DNA from: Micromonospora sp. WMMA1363
Lineage (GTDB): Bacteria; Actinomycetota; Actinomycetes; Mycobacteriales; Micromonosporaceae
Assembly (NCBI RefSeq): GCF_030345795.1
Contig: NZ_JAUALB010000001.1
Span: 1,731,001-1,795,000, forward strand
DNA length: 64,000 nt
Direction: 5' to 3'
Shown: one piece after another, positions 19,703 to 63,316 of the stretch
Numbering within the stretch: position 1 is the stretch's first letter
Layout of the letters: every line of letters begins with the position of its first letter
Position numbers and translations under genes: made by a program
Notes under the pieces: model-generated
Databases searched by the model: none
Told to the model about the DNA's origin: nothing
The model's input: only the letters and a program-made list of their open reading frames with translations

Positions 19703-19750
19703 ACGCGACATCTGGTGTTTCCCGCTCGGCGGGGACGGCATATATGGTGT
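19703..19750 (+). promoter_or_regulatory. Tandem NrdR boxes
   Basis: Two 16-bp sites resembling the NrdR box (ACACWATATATWGTGT) lie just before the riboswitch. ACGCGACATCTGGTGT (19703-19718) has about 11 of 16 matches and ACGGCATATATGGTGT (19735-19750) about 12. They are 32 bp apart, about three helical turns, as known for paired NrdR boxes on ribonucleotide reductase promoters. NrdR is an ATP/dATP-sensing repressor. The second box contains TATATG, a possible -10 element, so repression would block the promoter directly. Confidence 0.7.
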
Positions 19751-19774
19751 CTCCCGCAGCTGGTTCGGCCGCTC

Positions 19775-19945
19775 CCGCACGGGACGGCCGAGGCAAGAGG
19801 GAACCCGGTGCGAATCCGGGACTGCCCCGCAGCGGTGAGTGGGAACGACCGCCGTCACCAAGCACTGGACCACACGGTCCGGGAAGCGACGGCCAGTAGG
19901 CGACCGGGACCCGGTCACGCCCGCGAGTCCGAAGACCTGCCAGCG
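19775..19945 (+). ncRNA. Cobalamin (AdoCbl) riboswitch upstream of nrdAB
   Basis: The leader contains the conserved cobalamin riboswitch elements in order: GAGGGAACCCGGTGCGAATC, then ACTGCCCCGCAGCGGTGAG, and finally the B12 box GTCCGAAGACCTGCC near the 3' side. It precedes nrdAB by about 150 bases. In Streptomyces coelicolor a B12 riboswitch turns the class Ia reductase nrdAB off when cobalamin is plentiful and the B12-dependent class II enzyme can be used; the same logic is expected here. A 69-base core is identical to that of the second riboswitch at 44.5 kb. Confidence 0.95.
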
Positions 19946-19968
19946 CGCCGCACGCGCCGCGTGCGGCG
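19946..19968 (+). terminator. GC hairpin directly after riboswitch (candidate expression platform)
   Basis: A perfect 10-bp inverted repeat (CGCCGCACGC, 3-base loop, complement) follows the B12 box immediately. It could be the terminator of the riboswitch expression platform. There is no U-run, and 120 bases of leader remain before the GTG start with its GAGGAGGGG ribosome site, so control of translation is also possible. Confidence 0.5.
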
Positions 19969-20091: not shown

Positions 20092-22476
20092 GTGACGGCG
20101 ACGCAGGAGCAGACCGCAGCCGATCAGCCGGAGCAGCGTCGGCAGGTGATGCAGGTCCGCAAACGCAACGGCGACACCGAGCCGGTGGACGTCAACAAGA
20201 TCGTCCGGGCGGTTGAGCGGTGGGTCGCCGAGTTGGACGAGGTGGACCCGCTGCGGGTCGCGACGAAGACGATCAGCGGCCTCTACGACGGGGCGAGCAC
20301 CGCGGAGCTGGACACGTTGTCGATCCAGACGGCGGCGGAGCTGATCGGTGAGGAACCGCAGTACTCCAGGCTGGCGGCGCGGCTGCTGGCCGCGTACGTG
20401 GACAAGGAGGTCCGTGGGCAGCAGGTGGCGAGCTTCAGCCAGTCCATCCGGTACGCGCACGGCCTGGGACTGATCGGCGACGACACGGCCGCGTTCGTGG
20501 CCCGCAACGCCCGCAAGCTGGACGACGCCGTGGACCCGGCCGGTGACCTTCGGTTCGAGTACTTCGGACTGCGCACCGTCGCGGACCGGTACCTGTTGCG
20601 GCACCCGCAGTCGCGGCTGGTGGTGGAGACACCGCAGTACTGGCTGCTGCGGGTGGCCTGCGGGTTGTCACAGACGCCGGTCGAGGCGATCGGGTTCTAC
20701 CGGCTGATGTCGTCGCTGGCGTACCTGCCCAGCTCGCCGACGCTGTTCAACTCGGGCACCCGGCACACTCAGATGTCGTCGTGTTTCCTGGTCGACTCGC
20801 CTCGCGACGAGCTGGACTCGATCTACGAGCGTTACCACCAGGTCGCCAAGCTGTCGAAGTTCTCCGGTGGCATCGGCATCTCCTGGTCGCGGGTACGCGG
20901 CCGGGGCGCGCTGATCCGCGGCACGAACGGCCGGTCGAACGGTATCGTGCCGTTCCTCAAGACCCTCGACGCCGGCGTCGCGGCGGTCAACCAGGGCGGC
21001 CGGCGCAAGGGCGCGGCCTGCGTCTACCTGGAGCCGTGGCATCCGGACATCGAGGAGTTCCTGGAGCTGCGGGACAACACCGGTGAGGACGCGCGGCGCA
21101 CCCACAACCTGAACCTGGCCAACTGGATCCCGGACGAGTTCATGCGTCGGGTCGAGGCGGACGGCGACTGGTCCCTGATCGATCCGTCGGACGCGCCGGA
21201 ACTGCCCGACCTGTACGGCGAGGAGTTCGACGCCGCCTACCGGATCGCGGAGAAGAAGGCCGTCCGGACGGTCAAGGCCCGGGACCTGTACGGACGGATG
21301 ATGCGCACCCTGGCGCAGACCGGCAACGGGTGGATGACGTTCAAGGACGCGTCGAACCGACTGTCCAACCAGACCGGCGTGCCGGGCAACACGATCCACC
21401 TGTCCAACCTGTGCACCGAGATCCTCGAGGTCAACAGCGACACCGAGACCGCGGTGTGCAACCTGGGCTCGATCAACCTCGGGGCGCACGTCACCGCGGA
21501 CGGCGTCGACTGGGCGAAGCTGCGGGCGACGGTCCGCACCGCGGTGGTGTTCCTGGACCGGGTGGTCGACATCAACTACTACCCGGCCGAGCAGGCGGCG
21601 GCGTCGAACCCGCGCTGGCGGCCGGTCGGGCTCGGGCTGATGGGCCTGCAGGACGCGTTCTTCACCCTGCGCCTGCCGTTCGACTCGGCGCGGGCCCGGG
21701 AGCTGTCCACCCGCGTACAGGAAGAGATCTACCTGACCGCCCTGGAGGCCTCGGCCGGGCTGGCCGAGCGCTTCGGCCCGCACCCGGCGTACGCCGAGAC
21801 CCGCGCGGCCAGGGGTGAGCTGCACCCGGAGCTGTGCGGCACCGAGCCCACCCAGACCGAGCGGTGGGCCGCGCTGCGCGCGGCGATCGCCGCACACGGC
21901 CTGCGTAACTCGTTGCTGGTCGCGATCGCTCCGACCGCCACGATCGCCTCGATCGCCGGCTGCTACGAGTGCATCGAGCCGCAGGTGTCCAACCTGTTCA
22001 AGCGCGAGACGATGTCCGGCGAGTTCCTCCAGATCAACACGTACCTGGTCCGTGAGCTCAAGGCGCGTGGGCTGTGGACGCCGCAGATCCGGGACCAGAT
22101 CAAGCGCGCCGAAGGGTCGGTGCAGGGGATCAGTGACCTGCCAGCGGGCGCGCGGCAGTTGTTCCGCACCGCGTGGGAGATCCCGCAGCGGGCGCTGATC
22201 GACCTAGCCGCCGCCCGGGCACCCTACGTCGACCAGTCCCAGTCGCTGAACCTGTTCATCGGCGCACCGACCATCGGCAAGCTTTCGTCGATGTACCGCT
22301 ACGCCTGGAAGTCCGGGCTGAAGACCACCTACTACCTGCGCTCGCGTCCCGCGACACGCATCCAGCAGGCCACCGTCGGTGTCACGCCGGCGACCACGCC
22401 GGTCGCCGCGGTGAGCGACGCCGAGGCGTTGGCCTGTTCCCTGGAAAACCCCGAGAGCTGCGAGGCCTGCCAGTGA
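20092..22476 (+). CDS. nrdA: Class Ia ribonucleoside-diphosphate reductase, alpha subunit
   Basis: This 794-residue protein reduces ribonucleoside diphosphates to deoxynucleotides. An N-terminal ATP-cone (VRKRNGDTEPVDVNKIV, from about residue 22) suggests dATP/ATP activity control. Catalytic residues are visible: redox Cys 231 (SSCFLVD) paired with Cys 456 (TAVCNLGS), the thiyl Cys 441 with Glu 443 (NLCTE), and the tyrosine pair in KTTYYLRSR for radical transfer. The C-terminal tail ends CEACQ, the shuttle cysteines re-reduced by thioredoxin or glutaredoxin-type donors. The GTG at 20092 follows GAGGAGGGG. It overlaps nrdB by four bases (GTGA). Expression is under the NrdR boxes and the cobalamin riboswitch upstream. 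Confidence 0.95.
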   Translation: MTATQEQTAADQPEQRRQVMQVRKRNGDTEPVDVNKIVRAVERWVAELDEVDPLRVATKTISGLYDGASTAELDTLSIQTAAELIGEEPQYSRLAARLLAAYVDKEVRGQQVASFSQSIRYAHGLGLIGDDTAAFVARNARKLDDAVDPAGDLRFEYFGLRTVADRYLLRHPQSRLVVETPQYWLLRVACGLSQTPVEAIGFYRLMSSLAYLPSSPTLFNSGTRHTQMSSCFLVDSPRDELDSIYERYHQVAKLSKFSGGIGISWSRVRGRGALIRGTNGRSNGIVPFLKTLDAGVAAVNQGGRRKGAACVYLEPWHPDIEEFLELRDNTGEDARRTHNLNLANWIPDEFMRRVEADGDWSLIDPSDAPELPDLYGEEFDAAYRIAEKKAVRTVKARDLYGRMMRTLAQTGNGWMTFKDASNRLSNQTGVPGNTIHLSNLCTEILEVNSDTETAVCNLGSINLGAHVTADGVDWAKLRATVRTAVVFLDRVVDINYYPAEQAAASNPRWRPVGLGLMGLQDAFFTLRLPFDSARARELSTRVQEEIYLTALEASAGLAERFGPHPAYAETRAARGELHPELCGTEPTQTERWAALRAAIAAHGLRNSLLVAIAPTATIASIAGCYECIEPQVSNLFKRETMSGEFLQINTYLVRELKARGLWTPQIRDQIKRAEGSVQGISDLPAGARQLFRTAWEIPQRALIDLAAARAPYVDQSQSLNLFIGAPTIGKLSSMYRYAWKSGLKTTYYLRSRPATRIQQATVGVTPATTPVAAVSDAEALACSLENPESCEACQ

Positions 22477-23525
22477 CCGCCGATCCCGAGACCCGTACCA
22501 CGAACTCCACCGCCGTCGGCGAGCGGCACATGCTGCTCGACCCCGGCATGGACCTGACCCTGCGGCCGATGCGCTACCCGCACTTCTTCGACCGGTTCAA
22601 GGACGCCATCCGCAACACCTGGACCGTCGAGGAGGTGGACCTGCACGCTGACCTCGCCGACCTGGCGAAGCTCTCGCCCGCCGAGCGGCATTTGGTGTCC
22701 CGGCTGGTCGCGTTCTTCGCCACCGGTGACACCATCGTCGCCAACAACCTGGTGCTCAACCTCTACCAGCACGTCAATTCCCCGGAGGGTCGGCTCTACC
22801 TGTCCCGGCAGCTGTTCGAGGAGGCCGTGCACGTCCAGTTCTACCTGAACCTGCTCGACACCTACGTGCCCGACGAGAAGGAGCGGTTCGCGGCGTTCGC
22901 CGCGATCGAGAACATCCCCTCCATCCGGCGCAAGGCCGAGTTCTGCTTCCGCTGGATCGACTCCGTCTTCGAGCTGCGCGAGCTACGGAGCCGGGAGGAC
23001 CGCCGGGCGTTCCTGCTCAACCTCATCTGCTTCGCCGCGTGCATCGAGGGGTTGTTCTTCTACGGCGCGTTCGCCTACGTCTACTTCCTGCGGTCCCGGG
23101 GTCTGCTCAACGGGCTCGCCTCCGGCACCAACTGGGTGTTCCGCGACGAGTCCATGCACATGGCATTCGCCTTCGACGTGGTGGACACCGTCCGGCGGGA
23201 GGAACCCGAGCTGTTCGACGCCGAGGTGGAACGGCAGGTCACCGAGATGCTCTCCGAGGCGGTCGAGTGCGAGGCCCAGTTCGCCGAGGACCTCCTGGAG
23301 CAGGGCGTCTCCGGGCTGTCGCCGGCCGACATGCGGGAGTATCTGCAGCACGTCGCCGACCGCCGGCTCGCCCAACTCGGCATCGCCCCGCGCTACGGCT
23401 CGACCAACCCGTTCGCGTTCATGGACCTGCAGGATGTACAGGAGCTGTCGAACTTCTTCGAACGGCGGGTTTCCGCGTACCAGGTCGGTGTCACCGGGAG
23501 CGTCACCTTCGACGACGACTTCTGA
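22473..23525 (+). CDS. nrdB: Class Ia ribonucleoside-diphosphate reductase, beta subunit
   Basis: This 350-residue partner of NrdA makes and stores the tyrosyl radical at a di-iron centre. The metal ligands can be placed: Asp 86 (GDTIV), Glu 117 and His 120 (EEAVHVQFY), Glu 192 (CIEGLFF), Glu 226 and His 229 (RDESMHMAF). The radical Tyr 124 sits four residues after His 120, as in E. coli NrdB. The GTG start overlaps the nrdA stop. In Streptomyces a small gene, nrdS, can follow nrdAB; none is seen here, as the next gene is on the opposite strand after a strong hairpin. Confidence 0.95.
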   Translation: MTADPETRTTNSTAVGERHMLLDPGMDLTLRPMRYPHFFDRFKDAIRNTWTVEEVDLHADLADLAKLSPAERHLVSRLVAFFATGDTIVANNLVLNLYQHVNSPEGRLYLSRQLFEEAVHVQFYLNLLDTYVPDEKERFAAFAAIENIPSIRRKAEFCFRWIDSVFELRELRSREDRRAFLLNLICFAACIEGLFFYGAFAYVYFLRSRGLLNGLASGTNWVFRDESMHMAFAFDVVDTVRREEPELFDAEVERQVTEMLSEAVECEAQFAEDLLEQGVSGLSPADMREYLQHVADRRLAQLGIAPRYGSTNPFAFMDLQDVQELSNFFERRVSAYQVGVTGSVTFDDDF

Positions 23526-39078: not shown

Positions 39079-40076
39079 TCAGGTGGGTGGATCGGCGAAG
39101 CCGGCCAGCAGCCGCTCGGCGGCGAGCGCCGGGGTGAGCGTGCCGGCGACGACCTGCCGCTCCACCTCCGGGGCGAGTGCCCGCACCGTGGGATGAGTCC
39201 GGAGTCGGTCGAGCAGCTCGGCCCGGACCATCGCCCAGACCCAGCCGACCTGCTGCCGACGGCGGCGCTCCGCGAGGTCACCGGAGGCGGCCAGGGTGTC
39301 CTGGTGGTGGCGGATCTGCCGCCACACCTCGTCGAGGCCCGTCTCCTCCAGGGCGCTGCAGGTGACCACCGGCGGCTGCCACCCGCCATCGGGCGGGTGC
39401 AGCAGGCGCAGTGCACCGGCGAGTTCGCGGGCCGCGCGGCGGGCGTCGCTCGCGTGCGGCCCGTCGGCCTTGTTGACGGCGATGACGTCGGCGAGTTCCA
39501 GCACGCCCTTCTTGATGCCCTGGAGCTGGTCGCCGGTGCGGGCGAGGGTGAGCAGCAGGAACGAGTCGACCATCTCCGCCACGGCGGTCTCCGACTGGCC
39601 GACACCGACGGTCTCCACCAGGACCACGTCGTAGCCGGCGGCCTCGACCACCACGATGGCCTCTCGGGTGGCCTGGGCGACTCCACCGAGGCTGCCGGCG
39701 GTCGGCGAGGGCCGGATGAACGCGGCCGGGTCGGTGGCGAGCCGGGCCATCCGGGTCTTGTCGCCGAGGATGCTGCCGCCGGTGCGGGTGGACGACGGGT
39801 CGACCGCGAGCACCGCCACCCGGTGCCCGTCGGCGGTGAGCCGGCTGCCGAGAGCGTCGATGAAGGTGGACTTGCCGACCCCGGGCACCCCGGTGATGCC
39901 GACCCGGCGGGCGCCTCCCGCATGCGGGGTGAGCGCGACCAGCAGCCGTTGTGCCGCCGCCCGGTGGTCGGGACGGGTGGACTCGACCAGGGTGATGGCT
40001 CGGGCGATCCAGGCCCGCGATCCGGCCCGCACCCCCTCGAGGTACGCCTCCGTCGCCGGGGCGCGCATGCCGCCGC

Positions 40077-40080
<4 letters not shown>
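39079..40080 (-). CDS. meaB: Methylmalonyl-CoA mutase-associated GTPase MeaB
   Basis: This 333-residue G3E-family GTPase has the P-loop GVPGVGKST at residues 64-72, the switch region [28 protein letters not shown] and the guanine motif NKAD at 203-206. MeaB protects methylmalonyl-CoA mutase, gates adenosylcobalamin loading and ejects damaged cofactor. The GTG start overlaps the mutB stop by four bases (GTGA), so the three genes mutA-mutB-meaB form one operon. Confidence 0.95.
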
Positions 40081-42294
<2,214 letters not shown>

Positions 42295-42298
<4 letters not shown>

Positions 42299-44151
42299 GC
42301 CACCCCCAGGTCACGCAGCGTCGTCTCCAGCACCGCCACGGCGTCGCAGCCCGCGTACAGGTAGTCCGTCACGCCGGTATGGCCGGCTGGCCCACCGGCC
42401 AGCCACAGCCGGACCGCGCCGGCGTCGGCCAGGGCCCGCGCCACCGACTCCGCCGACTCGGCGTAGCCACGGTCGGACGAGCACAGGCAGGCGACCCGGG
42501 CACCGCTGGCGGCGAATTCCGCGGCGAGCCGGGCCGGGTCGTCGTCCCCGACCGGCGGTCGGACGGTGGCGATCCCACCGGCTGCGAAGAGGTTCGCGGC
42601 GAACCCGGCGCGCGCGTTGTGCGCCGCCGCCGGGCCGAGGGTGGCGAGGAACACCGTGGGCCGGGCACCGGTAGCCACCGTGTGCGCGTCCGAGCGGTCA
42701 CGCAACGCCTCGTACGGCTCCGCGTACCGGTGCCGGGGCAGCCCGCCGCCGGGTGCGGCCGGCGCGGGCGGGCGGATCGGCAGCCGCTCCTCCAGGTCGG
42801 GGAACTCGCTGACGCCGGTGAGCGGGTCCCGGCGGTGCGCCAGGTTCCGCATCCGTCGCTGCCACGTCGCCGCGAGCCGGTCGGCGACCAGGCCGCTGTC
42901 CAGCGCGGCGCCCATCCCGCCGGCCCGCTCGATCTCCGTGAACCACGCCCAGGCCACCCGGGCCAGTTCCTCGGTGTACCGCTCGACGTACCACGAGCCG
43001 CCGGCCGGGTCGACCACCCGGCCCACGTTCGCCTCCTCCAGCAGCAGCGACTGGGTGTTACGCGCGATCCGCCGGGCGAAGCCGTCCGGCAGGCCCAGGC
43101 AGTGGTCGAACGGCTGCACGGTCACCGCGTCCGCCCCACCGACGCCGGCGGCGAAACAGGCCAGCGTCGTCCGGAGCATGTTCACCCAGGGATCACGCGC
43201 GGTCATCATCGCCGTAGCGGTCACCGCGTGCTGGCGCTGCGCGCCCGCCTCCGGCACCCCGCACACCTGCGCCACCCGCGCCCAGAGCCGGCGGGCGGCG
43301 CGCAGCTTCGCGATCGTGGCGAACTGGTCGGCGGTGGCGGCGTACCGGAACTCCAGCTGTCCGAACGCGGCCGGCACGGCCAACCCGGCAGCAGTCAACT
43401 CGCGCAGGTACGCCACACCGGTGGCCAGCGCGCAGCCGATCTCCTGCGCGTCGGAACCGCCCGCGTCGTGGTAGCCGGTCGCGTCGACCATCATCGCCCG
43501 CAGGCCCGGGAAACCGGCCGCGCACCGGCGGGCCCACTCGCCGGCCGGGCCGTCCCACCGCTGCCCGGTCCGCGCCCGGAAACCGAGTGGGTCCACGCCC
43601 AGGCAGCCGCGCACCTCGGCGGCCGGCACACCCCGGTCCGCCACCAGCGCGAACCACCCCGGCACCACCTCGACCGCGGCAGCGCCGGCGTCCAGCACGA
43701 CACCGGCCAGGTCCAGGTAGACGCCCTCCAGGACCGCCGGCAGCCCGGCCGGCGACACACCGCCCTCACCGAGCACCAGCCACAGCGAGGTGGCACCGTT
43801 CTCCAGGTCGGCGCGGACCGCCGCACCGGTGGCCGTCAGGTCCGGGTCGGCGTGCCGCTGCCGGACGTCCCACCCCGCCACCACCGCCCCGGTCGCCCGG
43901 CCACCCCGGGTGTACGGAAACAGCCCCGGCGGGCCTGGGAACGGGGTCGGGTCGTCGGCGGTGTACAGCGGCGCGAGCTCCACGTCGTCGTACCCGCGAT
44001 GGGTCAGCAGCTCCTCGACCGTCTCGGTCGGGGTGTCCTCGTCGGCGAGGCCGGCCTTGCGGAGCACCCCGAGAGTCAACCGCCGCCACTGCTCGTGCGT
44101 GGCGGCCGGGAAATCGGCGGCAAGGCGAAGCGTCTCTGACGGCACCGTCAT
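42295..44151 (-). CDS. mutA: Methylmalonyl-CoA mutase small (beta) subunit
   Basis: The ATG at 44151 ([15 protein letters not shown]) gives 618 residues, the usual length of the non-catalytic MutA subunit. It resembles MutB ([12 protein letters not shown] linker, [31 protein letters not shown]) but lacks the DxHxxG cobalamin motif in its C-terminal domain, as is normal for MutA. It forms a heterodimer with MutB. It is the first gene of mutA-mutB-meaB. The 300 bp between it and the divergent riboswitch should hold its promoter; nothing else was recognised there. Confidence 0.93.
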
Positions 44152-44469
44152 GCCGGGATGGTAAGGGCCGGCCGGCGGGGCGTCGCCCGGATGTGACAAC
44201 GCCAACTGTGCCGGCCGTCACAGCTCACCTCCGGCCACGTCGACAACCGGCTCCGACGATGCCCGGGAGCACACCGCGGTCAACGCCGCGTTGCGCCCGC
44301 TCGGTGCCGGAACCGCGGCATCGAGACCGTGTTCCCGCTCGCCCTGACCGGCCGGCGACACCGCTGGCGAGCGAGGTGGCTCACAGCCCGCGCCGGGACC
44401 ACCTGCCGGGTGACCACTACCCGATAGGGTCACCGGCGGCGCTGGTTCGCTTGGCCGCACCAGGTCGGG

Positions 44470-44625
44470 CGTCGTAAGAGGGAACCCGGTGCGAATCCGG
44501 GACTGCCCCGCAGCGGTGAGTGGGAACGACCGCCGTCACCACGCACTGGACCGCGAGGTCCGGGAAGCGACGGTCAGTAGGAGACCGGTCCAGGCCGGTC
44601 GCGCCCGCGAGTCCGAAGACCTGCC
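44470..44625 (+). ncRNA. Cobalamin riboswitch upstream of acyl-CoA thioesterase
   Basis: The same ordered elements as in the first riboswitch are present: GAGGGAACCCGGTGCGAATC, ACTGCCCCGCAGCGGTGAG and the B12 box GTCCGAAGACCTGCC. The core from 44478 is identical to the nrdAB riboswitch for about 69 bases. It is oriented toward the thioesterase gene at 44760 and away from mutA, leaving about 135 bases of leader. Cobalamin would be expected to switch off the thioesterase-exporter pair. No perfect terminator hairpin was found, so the control level is unclear. Confidence 0.93.
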
Positions 44626-44759
44626 CGTGCCGCGTACACGAGGTGTGTGCGCTGCCGTCGACCTCGTGGGCGGGTCGGGCGGGTGACACGCCGGCTGGGC
44701 GTGTCCTCGACGTGCGCGCCGACGGGTCCGACGGCGTTCTTCCCGAGGACGGACGACCC

Positions 44760-45260
44760 ATGCACGACACCACCACACTCGCCGGCCGGCCACCGTCGGC
44801 GTCGCACCTGACCCTGTCGCAGATCATGGACCAACACCACACCAACCTGATGGGCACGGTCCACGGCGGCCGGATCCTCAATCTCATCGACTCCGTCGCC
44901 GGGGTGGTCGCCGCCCGGCACTCCGACGGGCCGGCGGTCACCGCCGCCATCGACGAGACCGCCTTCCTCCGGGCGGTGCGCGTCGGCGACGTGGTCCACG
45001 TTGACGCCCGCATCACCTGGGCGGGCCGCAGCTCGATGGAGGTCGCCGTCAAGGTGACCGCGGACCGCTGGGACCGGGCCGTACTGGCCACCGCCCACCT
45101 GGTCATGGTCGCCGTCGACGACGCCGGCCAGCCCCGTGCCGTCCCGCCGCTGCTTCCCGAGACCGACGGGGACCGGCGCCGCTACCGCGAGGCGGAGATC
45201 CGCCGCGAGCACCGGCTGGCGTTGCGTCGCGCCCTGCTGGACGGGGCCGGGGAGGGCTGA
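44760..45260 (+). CDS. Acyl-CoA thioesterase (hotdog fold, YciA/BFIT-like)
   Basis: This 166-residue single-hotdog thioesterase hydrolyses an acyl-CoA to acid and CoA in the cytoplasm. The family signature is SQIMDQHHTNLMGTVHGGRI with the catalytic Asp/His-rich region, followed by GVVAARHSDGPAVTAAIDE and LRAVRVGDVVHVDARITW. The ATG at 44760 is taken because upstream in-frame starts would lie within the riboswitch. A GAGGACGG lies 11 bases before it. Its setting is striking: a cobalamin riboswitch in front and the B12-dependent methylmalonyl-CoA mutase operon divergent from it. A role in clearing propionyl- or methylmalonyl-CoA when B12 is short is an inference. Confidence 0.88.
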   Translation: MHDTTTLAGRPPSASHLTLSQIMDQHHTNLMGTVHGGRILNLIDSVAGVVAARHSDGPAVTAAIDETAFLRAVRVGDVVHVDARITWAGRSSMEVAVKVTADRWDRAVLATAHLVMVAVDDAGQPRAVPPLLPETDGDRRRYREAEIRREHRLALRRALLDGAGEG

Positions 45261-45263
45261 GGC

Positions 45264-45895
45264 ATGCTCGACTGTCCGCAGCGACGCTCGCCGGCTACCT
45301 CGCGGCGACCGTCGTGCTCATGGTCACGCCGGGGCCGGACATGATGTTCGTCCTGGCCAACGCCGCCCGCTACGGCACCCGCGCCGGCATCGTCGCCGCG
45401 CTCGGCGTCGCCGCCGGGGAGGCGGTGCACATCGCGGCGGTGGTTTACGGCCTCGCGGCGGTGATCTCGGCCTCGCCGGTGCTGTTCACCGTGATCCGCT
45501 GGGCCGGCGCGGCATACCTGATCGTGCTCGGCGTACGGGCGCTGCGCGGTACCAGCGGTCTTGGCGCCGCCGAACCGGCGCCCGGCGCCCGGGGCGGACG
45601 GGGCGGACGGGCCTTCCTACGCGGGCTCGTGAGCAACCTGCTCAACCCGAAGATGATCCTGTTCAGCGTGGCGTTTCTGCCGCAGTTCGTCGACCCGGCG
45701 GTGGGCGACACCACCGCCCAACTGGTGCTGCTCGGCGCCCTCTTCGTGGCGGTGCAGCTCGTCGTCGACATCGCTCTCGGCGCGGGCGCTGGACGGCTGG
45801 CCGCCCGGTTGGCGGACGGCCGCTGGTCACGCCGGATCAACCGGATCTGCGCGGTCGCGTTCGTCGCGCTCGGCCTACGGCTGGCGGCGGGCTGA
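45264..45895 (+). pseudogene. LysE/RhtB-family exporter, start out of frame by one base
   Basis: From the GTG at 45314 the frame encodes LMVTPGPDMMFVLANAARYG and five or six membrane helices, a LysE/RhtB-type amino-acid or small-metabolite exporter. The natural N-terminus appears to be ATG 45264. Reading ATG-CTC-GAC and adding one C gives MLDLSAATLAGYLAATVVL, the standard first helix of the family, in frame with the rest (210 residues in all). As read, either a one-base deletion near 45271 has hit the gene or translation begins at GTG 45314 with half a helix missing. It follows the thioesterase by 3 bases and shares its riboswitch. Confidence 0.75.
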
Positions 45896-46356: not shown

Positions 46357-46653
46357 ATGAAAACCCTGCTGCAGTCGCCCCCGGTGCGTGAATGCGCCGC
46401 CACGGCGTGCAGTTTCAACGACAACGGCTGCCACGCTCCGGCGATCACCGTGGCGTCGACGGGTGATGCCGCTTCCTGCGCGACGTTCGTGGAGTCCTCG
46501 GTGCAGGGCGGGATCGCGGAGGTGATCGGCGCCGTGGGCGCCTGCGCACGCTCCGAGTGTGTCTACAACACCAACCTCGCCTGCACCGTCGAGTCGATCA
46601 CCGTCGGTCCCGGCGCCACCGCCAGCGACTGCCTCACCTACCAGCCCGCCTGA
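46357..46653 (+). CDS. DUF1540 cysteine-rich small protein
   Basis: This 98-residue protein has two similar halves, each with four cysteines. The first is RECAATACSFNDNGCHAPAI and SCATF; the second is ARSECVYNTNLACTVESI and DCLTY. This is the DUF1540 arrangement, thought to bind metal, but no function is established. The ATG at 46357 is preceded by GGAGG. A possible iron box is upstream and another follows before the DUF2470 gene, which suggests a role in iron-limited cells. Small, soluble, no signal peptide. Confidence 0.8.
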   Translation: MKTLLQSPPVRECAATACSFNDNGCHAPAITVASTGDAASCATFVESSVQGGIAEVIGAVGACARSECVYNTNLACTVESITVGPGATASDCLTYQPA

Positions 46654-61192: not shown

Positions 61193-61829
61193 AATACAAA
61201 TACCTACCGCAAAGTTGCTGAGATCACCTCTTGCGAACACGAACGTGGAAAGCGAGGCAGAGACGGATGGCGGCCTCGTGGACTGCGGTGCTGTACGAGA
61301 GATGGAGGTTGTTTGGCCCTCCGGAGCCGGCGTGCGGAAGCAGGCTTCAAACCACCACGAGGGGCGTTGGCTGAAGACCGTCGTCCTGAGCGTCGTTGGA
61401 AAAGGCGCGGCATGATCGCGTCAGGTGTGGACCGGGAAGATGAGCGATGAACGTCGAGTTCTCTGCCGTTGACGTGTCGAAACTCAGTCAGATGACATCA
61501 AAACCGAGGCCGGAGGTGAGTCTCGGGAAGAGCCTGGGGGATAGCCGCTTACTGCCCAGGTGGTGTCCGGCATATAGGCAGCATGAGCCCGGTCCAGGCT
61601 CTCGTATGGAACGTGTGAAGGCGGACCCCGATACCGCCCGTTGGGTGACCGGCGGCGAGAGGGAGAACTCCAAGCGGCGGAAACCGCGAGGAGCGGAGTA
61701 CCGATGCGGGGACGCTGGCGGACTCGCCCGTAGTAGCTGTGAACCGCCTGCGTATCGCAGTGGGTCGGGGAGCGAAGGGGCGGGGTCGTTCAGGCTGGCG
61801 CGGGCGGTCAACCGTGAGGGAGGAACCGC

Positions 61830-63074
61830 GTGAGTCAGTCAGGGTTGACAGGTAAGTCGCACGACATCCCCAAGCGGCTGGTCTGGGCCGCGTGGTTGAA
61901 GGTGAAGGGTAACGGCGGAGCGGCCGGGGCCGACGGCGTGACGATCGAACAGTTCGAGGAGCGGTTGACTGACAACCTCTACCGGCTGTGGAACCGCATG
62001 TCGTCGGGCAGCTACTTTCCCGGCCCGGTCCGGGCGGTGGAGATCCCCAAGAAGGGTGGAACCAGGATTCTGGGCATACCCAACGTGGTCGACCGGGTGG
62101 CGCAGACGGCGGCGGTGCTGGTGCTGGAGCCGGAGGTGGAGAAGGTGTTCCACGACGACTCCTACGGCTATCGTCCCGGACGGTCCCCGGTGGATGCGGT
62201 GCGGGTGTGCCGGCAGCGGTGTTTCAAGAAGGACTGGGTCGTCGACCTGGACGTCAAAGCCTTCTTCGATTCGGTGCCGTGGGAGCTGATGCTCAAGGCG
62301 GTGGCACGACACGCGGCCCAGCCGTGGGTCATGCTGTATGTGCAGCGCTGGTTGAAGGCGCCGATGCTGATGCCCGACGGAACCTTGGCCTGCCGGACGA
62401 AGGGGACACCGCAGGGTGGCCCGATCTCCCCGTTGATCGCCAACATCTTCCTGCACTACGGCTTCGACACCTGGATGTCCCGGGAGTTTCCCGGGGTCGG
62501 GTTCGAGCGGTTCGCAGACGATGTGGTGGTCCACTGCGTGACCGAACGTCAGGCGCACCAGATGCGGCAGGCGATCGATCGCCGGTTCGCGGACATCGGG
62601 TTGCAGGTGCATCCCGACAAGACGCGCATCGTGTACTGCAAGGACGACCGGCGTCGCCTGGACTACGGCCAGGTGACGTTCACGTTCTGCGGATACGCGT
62701 TTCGTCCCCGCAAGACCTTCGTCCGGGGGAAGTCCCGAACGGGGTTCCTGCCAGCGGTGGCTCCGGGGAAGCTGGCCGACATGAGCCGCAAGGTCGCGTC
62801 CTGGCGGCTACATCGGCGCACGACCGAAAACCTGGCCGACCTCGCGGAAGAGATCAACCCGGCCCTACGGGGCTGGTTGAACTACTTCACCGTGTTCTAC
62901 CCGAGCGCGGTGAACCCGATCGGCAAGCGTGTCGACCGCCATCTGATGCGCTGGGGGAAGTGGAAGTACAAGCGACTCAAACGCAGTGACGACCGGGCGC
63001 GGGCATGGTTGATGGGAGTCCGACAACGGACACCGAACCTATTCGCTCACTGGACACTGCGGTACACGACCTGA
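61830..63074 (+). CDS. ltrA: Group II intron reverse transcriptase/maturase
   Basis: This 414-residue protein has the RT core of group II intron-encoded proteins: GADGVTIEQFEERL, IPKKGGTRILGIPNVVDR, DDSYGYRPGRSPVDAV, WVVDLDVKAFFDSVPW with a catalytic Asp, GTPQGGPISPLIANIFL and the active-site box FADD (usually YADD) at about residue 228. A C-terminal maturase domain follows (LRGWLNYFTVFYPS). There is no HNH endonuclease domain, as in many bacterial introns. It helps the RNA splice and copies it at new sites. Confidence 0.93.
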   Translation: MSQSGLTGKSHDIPKRLVWAAWLKVKGNGGAAGADGVTIEQFEERLTDNLYRLWNRMSSGSYFPGPVRAVEIPKKGGTRILGIPNVVDRVAQTAAVLVLEPEVEKVFHDDSYGYRPGRSPVDAVRVCRQRCFKKDWVVDLDVKAFFDSVPWELMLKAVARHAAQPWVMLYVQRWLKAPMLMPDGTLACRTKGTPQGGPISPLIANIFLHYGFDTWMSREFPGVGFERFADDVVVHCVTERQAHQMRQAIDRRFADIGLQVHPDKTRIVYCKDDRRRLDYGQVTFTFCGYAFRPRKTFVRGKSRTGFLPAVAPGKLADMSRKVASWRLHRRTTENLADLAEEINPALRGWLNYFTVFYPSAVNPIGKRVDRHLMRWGKWKYKRLKRSDDRARAWLMGVRQRTPNLFAHWTLRYTT

Positions 63075-63088
63075 TAACCGAACGGCAC

Positions 63089-63122
63089 GAGCCGGATAAG
63101 CCGAGAGGCTTACGTCCGGATC
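63089..63122 (+). ncRNA. Group II intron domain V
   Basis: GAGCCGGATAAGCC, a GAGA tetraloop, then GGCTTACGTCCGGATC forms the 34-nt catalytic hairpin with its two-base bulge, in the correct position just after the maturase stop. It is the best conserved part of group II introns. Confidence 0.9.
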
Positions 63123-63316
63123 TGTGGGGGACGGCGGGTGAGACTCCCGCCGTCTACCCGGCAGTTGACATCCGGCCGACCCTGGATCCCCGCAATCAAC
63201 TGATGACCTGAGTAGTTACCGGACATCTTGCCGTACCGGAATCGAGACGTGAATCGACTAGCACCGGCGCGAAGGTGAAATAAACGTCCAGTCAGGCCCG
63301 ACACGCAATTCGACAG

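Follow-up and report, generated by a model that had tools for sequence, protein, structure and literature searches.

Cobalamin riboswitch aptamers precede an acyl-CoA thioesterase gene in Micromonospora and related actinobacteria: a candidate outlet for acyl-CoAs in B12 shortage

Why should a gene for an acyl-CoA thioesterase stand behind a cobalamin riboswitch? Riboswitches of the RF00174 kind keep genes off when B12 is present. Shortage of B12 disables the methionine synthase MetH, the ribonucleotide reductase NrdJ and the acyl-CoA mutases; MetH and NrdJ can have B12-free isozymes, MetE and NrdAB, and to our knowledge the acyl-CoA mutases have none. The window analysed here, a stretch of 64,000 nucleotides from the genome of Micromonospora sp. 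WMMA1363, contains such a thioesterase gene, together with a LysE-type gene downstream and a divergent methylmalonyl-CoA mutase operon (Table 1).

In the window, an RF00174 match that spans the whole model (positions 1-189, cmscan) ends 117 nt upstream of the thioesterase start. A first-pass annotation of the same DNA had proposed a B12 riboswitch as the leader of a hotdog thioesterase, and both the riboswitch and the thioesterase (PF03061) are confirmed; it had placed the aptamer from 44470, and the true start lies 44 nt earlier, at 44426. The whole genome (6.48 Mb) has five RF00174 matches at E <= 0.001, four of them over the cut-off. The chance that one of five aptamers would lie on the strand of a given gene and no more than 400 nt ahead of it is about 1.5e-4 (5 × 400/(2 × 6.48e6)), before conservation is counted.

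The leader 3' of the aptamer has a short hairpin that, by its position, we take to be P13-like. In 24 leaders, 99.2% of 120 cells of this hairpin are paired, compared with 20-60% in slid controls, and one of its five pairs covaries, with both sides changed in nine of the 24 leaders compared. A kissing pair between this hairpin and the loop at 44552-44557 is possible in the window, and we dropped this reading because the pairing is not conserved in other leaders. Closer to the start codon, a helix of 5-8 bp over the SD is possible in 21 of 22 Micromonospora leaders. Plain shuffles, which do not preserve dinucleotides, reached such a helix in 6 of 200 cases for the window and in up to 151 of 200 for other leaders; 85.6% of its cells are paired, yet its covariation is no better than that of shuffles, and it is absent from the MFE fold of the window leader. 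For these reasons we rejected the ribosome-site hairpin as proof of mechanism and treat it as suggestive, so that control at translation is something we infer.

Table 1. Coordinates, within the window, of the features discussed in the text.
Feature	Coordinates	Strand	Evidence or remark
Second cobalamin riboswitch	19744..19958	+	RF00174 89.3 bits
nrdA-nrdB, class Ia ribonucleotide reductase, B12-independent, behind the second riboswitch	20092..23525	+	PF02867, PF00268, TIGR02506
meaB, mutase-associated GTPase	39079..40080	-	PF03308, TIGR00750
mutB, mutase large subunit, two frames meeting at 40556-40568	40083..42298	-	tblastn with G003 protein
mutA, methylmalonyl-CoA mutase small subunit	42295..44151	-	TIGR00642 564 bits, below cut-off 617
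Cobalamin riboswitch aptamer RF00174, full length	44426..44642	+	cmscan 93.0 bits, gathering cut-off 31.5, E 8.1e-22
Short hairpin 3' of the aptamer, CGACC/GGTCG	44659..44677	+	pairing kept across 24 leaders
Possible ribosome-site hairpin, TGTCCTCG (44702-44709) with CGAGGACG (44744-44751)	44702..44751	+	5' of ATG 44760
Hotdog acyl-CoA thioesterase, ACOT7/YciA type, 166 aa	44760..45260	+	PF03061 7.7e-19; PDB 4zv3 2.2e-35
LysE/RhtB-type exporter gene (start at 45314 if limited to ATG/GTG/TTG)	45272..45895	+	PF01810 1.4e-40

The thioesterase scores 68.2 bits with PF03061, for which the cut-off is 20.6. Among PDB structures its best relatives are bacterial acyl-CoA hydrolases and entry 4zv3, 'cytosolic acyl coenzyme A thioester hydrolase', which we take to be ACOT7. 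In the alignment N29 falls on the Asn of the first ACOT7 domain and D44 on the Asp of the second, positions that are presumably the catalytic ones of ACOT7. The protein thus resembles the YciA and ACOT7 thioesterases in its hotdog fold family and in these two positions, and differs from them in having a riboswitch leader and in scoring 49.3 bits with the YciA equivalog NF007970, well below the cut-off of 162.

Searching with the thioesterase yielded 80 related loci, all of which were scanned with Rfam. Upstream on the thioesterase strand, 37 of the 80 have an aptamer over the cut-off: 33 directly, with 37-353 nt between the aptamer and the start of the tblastn match, and four by way of an operon, three behind riboswitch-metE (L046, L047 and L048) and one behind nrdA-nrdB (L031). 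A riboswitch or operon is shared with nrdAB in L031, L098, L121 and L138 and with metE in L046-L048, and in L114 the riboswitches of the thioesterase, nrdAB and metE all lie within 8 kb. The other 43 loci comprise 33 aptamer-free homologues of 45-60% identity, seven close relatives with no upstream aptamer over the cut-off (L032, L033, L034, L036, L040, L049 and L066), one locus, L019, truncated upstream by the end of its contig, and two partial hits (L084 and L085). Within about 3 kb downstream of 23 of the 33 aptamer-free homologues lies an AMP-binding synthetase, which by inspection is acetoacetyl-CoA-synthetase-like (Pfam was run on one). The exception among the distant homologues is L080 (53% identity), which has an aptamer.

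Wider samples gave a similar picture within the family and a different one beyond it. Twenty of 121 genomes in a species sample of the family carry this type of thioesterase, defined as at least 62% identity and a location away from any acyl-CoA synthetase; 13 have a direct aptamer, one has the gene behind nrdAB, two have it behind metE and four have no aptamer (the best 150 RF00174 matches were listed, and carriers absent there were checked region by region). All nine further close copies in the order sample, which come from eight genus members, have an aptamer, in one case behind nrdAB, and G296 has two thioesterase copies with an aptamer each. The thioesterase of G325 is no more than the divergent neighbour of a riboswitch-metE unit. 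Of 394 genomes in the class sample, 98 gave hits; 40 of these were picked and scanned, and 39 have no aptamer near the gene, although in one of the 39, G408, the gene lies 34 nt from the contig start and its upstream region is unseen. Several of the L-numbered and G-numbered loci come from the same species, and these counts overlap. In view of the 33 aptamer-free homologues and the 39 class genomes, we reject the idea that this thioesterase family is generally under riboswitch control. The fortieth of the scanned class genomes, G588 from another family (L138 4267-9914), has the order riboswitch-nrdA-nrdB-Nramp-thioesterase, and the last three genes overlap by 4 nt; as a separate observation, the Nramp protein, a metal transporter placed behind a B12 riboswitch, may supply a metal-dependent reductase.

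On a phylogenetic tree of the thioesterases, the riboswitch-linked genes fall into a main Micromonosporaceae clade, together with its early side branches, and also appear at separate positions, in Asanoa, in an Amycolatopsis-Lentzea pair and in a Mobilicoccus genome. The label for directly linked genes changes 12 times on this tree (at least six of these on well-supported branches), compared with a mean of 32.9 when labels are shuffled, in a count that does not separate gains from losses. Hits shorter than 120 aa (L043, L066, L084 and L085 among them) were left out of the tree, and the label for genes without a riboswitch includes L019. Taken with the differing operons, in which the gene occurs alone, with metE, with nrdAB or with nrdAB-Nramp, the tree structure suggests that the role may have been recruited more than once. 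The riboswitch linkage could also be a coincidence, with a general thioesterase drifting under the riboswitch by read-through and having no B12-related job. The 33 aptamer-free homologues and the class genomes with no aptamer nearby (39 of 40, with G408 unseen upstream) are what such drift would leave behind, but a coincidence would have to account for three operon placements (alone, metE and nrdAB) at separate places in the tree and for the two independently equipped copies in G296, and we consider it improbable. Since cobalamin riboswitches repeatedly precede the thioesterase in company with metE and nrdAB, in several actinobacterial lineages, the role in B12 shortage proposed in the first-pass annotation is supported, and the gene is very probably a member of the B12-starvation regulon.

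In this genome the remaining RF00174 matches lie ahead of nrdAB, cobN, a btuF-like gene and cbtBA (the cbtBA match being below the cut-off); the thioesterase apart, the B12 switches here serve B12-independent isozymes and B12 supply. The thioesterase leader resembles the known cobalamin riboswitch regulon of MetE and NrdAB in its RF00174 aptamer and in occurring in the same genomes and the same operons, and by analogy it would be off when B12 is present. The difference is in the target, an acyl-CoA thioesterase that is neither an isozyme nor a gene of B12 uptake or synthesis.

The product of the LysE-type gene scores 139.3 bits with PF01810 (cut-off 25.6). In most Micromonospora relatives this gene starts a few bases past the thioesterase stop, and the start codon common to most of them corresponds here to ATG 45264, which is one base out of frame. 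The first-pass annotation had taken the exporter to be coupled to the thioesterase. Of 60 loci, 22 (the window counted) have a full-length LysE gene next to the thioesterase and four have a remnant; none was found in the other 34, a figure that includes L043, whose contig ends inside the thioesterase; in loci beyond the 60, LysE occurs only in copies of genomes already counted. With full-length genes in just these 22 loci, we rejected the exporter as an essential partner and do not retain the coupling. The order riboswitch-thioesterase-exporter is conserved in its first two members (33 of 80 loci direct) and not in its third.

LysE/RhtB proteins are known as exporters of amino acids and are not known to export dicarboxylates. 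The highest NCBIfam scores of the LysE-type protein are with homoserine/threonine and leucine exporters, all below the cut-offs, and these scores could be read as pointing to methionine metabolism: the thioesterase and LysE genes would form a relief unit for a stalled methionine synthase, with the RhtB-like protein exporting homocysteine- or homoserine-type amino acids and the thioesterase being incidental. The metE-thioesterase operons of L046-L048 fit such a unit, as does the lack of MetE in this genome, where the best PF01717 match reaches 39.3 bits as against 482.6 for a real MetE. However, LysE was not found in those same three metE-thioesterase loci, nor in 34 of the 60 overall (one of them contig-cut), and it is the thioesterase that is the conserved part; we regard relief on the methionine side as highly improbable.

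The divergent mutA-mutB-meaB operon is present in the orientation first described, except that mutB has a frame change at 40556-40568. In tblastn the G003 protein aligns with the gene as two segments (93.9% and 90.7%); the change parts the catalytic section from the B12-binding domain, which in G003 belong to one intact frame, and the frame with the mutase domain has 628 aa here and 744 aa in both G003 and G010. The frame breaks in mutB and at the LysE start reflect either gene loss in the strain or small assembly errors. Among 139 sequences, mostly thioesterase loci flanked by 1.5 to 5 kb, mutA (at least 45% identity) accompanies the thioesterase in just three, L001, L006 and the window, and all three are this genome. 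A mutA-type subunit is found in four of 40 genomes overall, and the mutA operon of G003 has no riboswitch core motif nearby. On the mutA count we reject pairing with the mutases as the key to the locus, and that part of the first-pass annotation is not supported, its mutase neighbour being confined to one genome and frameshifted in mutB. The full model proposed there, which couples the thioesterase and the exporter to each other and to the neighbouring mutAB-meaB operon, draws on the adjacency in the window; since mutA is a neighbour in one genome, LysE is full-length in 22 of the 60 loci, and the reading frame is broken here both in mutB and at the LysE start, it can be given hardly any credence. 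It follows from the neighbour counts for LysE and mutA that the conserved unit is the riboswitch plus the thioesterase, joined at times by metE or nrdAB in one operon.

A connection with mutases can be sought at the level of the genome. This genome has four mutase-family genes, mutA and mutB included. Genes of this family were found in all 40 genomes checked, whether or not the thioesterase type was present, and co-occurrence is for this reason uninformative as a test of the thioesterase role, as it cannot single out the thioesterase. No prpD match exceeds the cut-off in any of the 40 genomes; six have weaker matches and 34, this genome included, have none. The methylcitrate route looks absent from these genomes on the basis of prpD, the sole methylcitrate gene sought, whose model may miss actinobacterial forms, since it passes its cut-off in only two of 14 control genomes. 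With no prpD over the cut-off, the B12-dependent mutases are the evident exit for propionyl-CoA and methylmalonyl-CoA.

We propose that bound cobalamin would turn expression off, perhaps by hiding the ribosome site, and that the gene would be read in B12 shortage. The same shortage would stall the B12-dependent acyl-CoA mutases (methylmalonyl-CoA mutase together with its paralogues), for which we know of no B12-free isozyme. With less certainty, branched and dicarboxylic acyl-CoAs would then accumulate and tie up CoA, and the thioesterase may cleave them, liberating CoA while the acids leave the cell. This would be a third arm of the B12 response, in which the substrate is vented where no substitute enzyme exists. 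Because no B12-free substitute for the mutases is known to us and none of the 40 genomes has a prpD over the cut-off, a valve that would free CoA from stalled methylmalonyl-type thioesters is the best reading of the gene, and we judge the case for it to be evenly balanced. The general form of the proposal, that actinobacteria have a third answer to B12 shortage in a dedicated, riboswitch-driven thioesterase venting the methylmalonyl-type thioesters of stalled mutases, is put forward tentatively. The relief valve first suggested for this locus accordingly survives in a corrected form that dispenses with the mutase neighbour and the required exporter. Against a valve are the seven close relatives among the 80 loci and the four of 20 family genomes that have no aptamer, a mutase operon that is not a conserved neighbour, and a thioesterase family that acts on many acyl-CoAs.

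The gene could also serve B12 starvation with another substrate, for example fatty-acid or branched-chain intermediates, methylmalonyl-type thioesters not being the main target. Its recurrent partners, metE and nrdAB, link it to B12 shortage and not to mutases, and its nearest solved relatives are ACOT7 enzymes, which prefer medium and long chains. The metE and nrdAB steps are covered by isozymes, however, which leaves the acyl-CoA mutases as the B12-dependent step that lacks one; we see another main substrate as possible but rather unlikely.

If the valve reading is true, B12 riboswitches govern the relief of metabolic damage besides replacement and supply, a bacterial counterpart of methylmalonic aciduria could be tested in a culturable environmental genus, and there would be a gene-level handle on how B12-limited soil actinomycetes leak methylmalonate and related acids. 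The polyketide pathways of soil actinomycetes draw on methylmalonyl-CoA.

The nearest idea to a thioesterase valve is the propionate shunt of Caenorhabditis elegans, which is likewise repressed by B12 and disposes of propionyl-CoA once the B12-dependent route has failed (PMC4951191). That shunt is described there as a five-enzyme oxidation under transcriptional control in an animal, whereas the locus here would use one hydrolase and an RNA switch. The enzyme family itself has been put to use in Methylorubrum, where YciA of Escherichia coli or Haemophilus influenzae led to release of 2-methylsuccinic and mesaconic acid (PMC9529712), acids of the ethylmalonyl-CoA pathway (PMC9529712, PMC10560148). 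Low cobalt reportedly raised the acid yield sixfold (PMC9529712, citing Sonntag 2015), and methylmalonic acid is only a minor product, in small amounts (PMC9529712). The engineered strains are thus like the present case in enzyme family, in freeing acids from CoA and in a yield that rises when cobalt is short, and unlike this natural locus in their artificial expression and in having mainly mesaconic and 2-methylsuccinic acid as products (PMC9529712). An open-access literature search found no paper with a thioesterase as the target of a cobalamin riboswitch, in agreement with the initial impression that no system of this type had been described, and the word thioesterase is absent from the main text of PMC9600662 and PMC2667541. 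Judged from the genomes compared, the riboswitch-thioesterase arrangement is a real, conserved and, as far as we searched, unreported riboswitch target.

Several smaller features were seen along the way. In L026, L028 and L091 a second, weak aptamer-like sequence (33-34 bits) lies upstream on the opposite strand, and such a sequence is recognized by pattern only in L022 and L023; in these five loci it is possibly a decaying riboswitch. In L035 (4160-4702) and L037 (4031-4588) a small cysteine-rich protein of about 110 aa, ferredoxin-like by eye (the L035 one without a Pfam match), is encoded divergently from the thioesterase, and its gene has another cobalamin aptamer on its strand, on the 3' side. 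A relative of this protein is encoded 3' of metE-thioesterase in L066. In the window, a small cysteine-rich frame beginning MKTLLQSPPVRECAATACSFNDNGC lies 3' of LysE at 46357-46653 (+), and a similar frame in L140 (3780-4067) adjoins a mutase-family gene. The window also contains a group II intron at 61304-63162 (+), with D1-D4 at 61304-61426 and the 3' part at 63087-63162, and inside it lies a frame of 409 aa at 61845-63074 (+).
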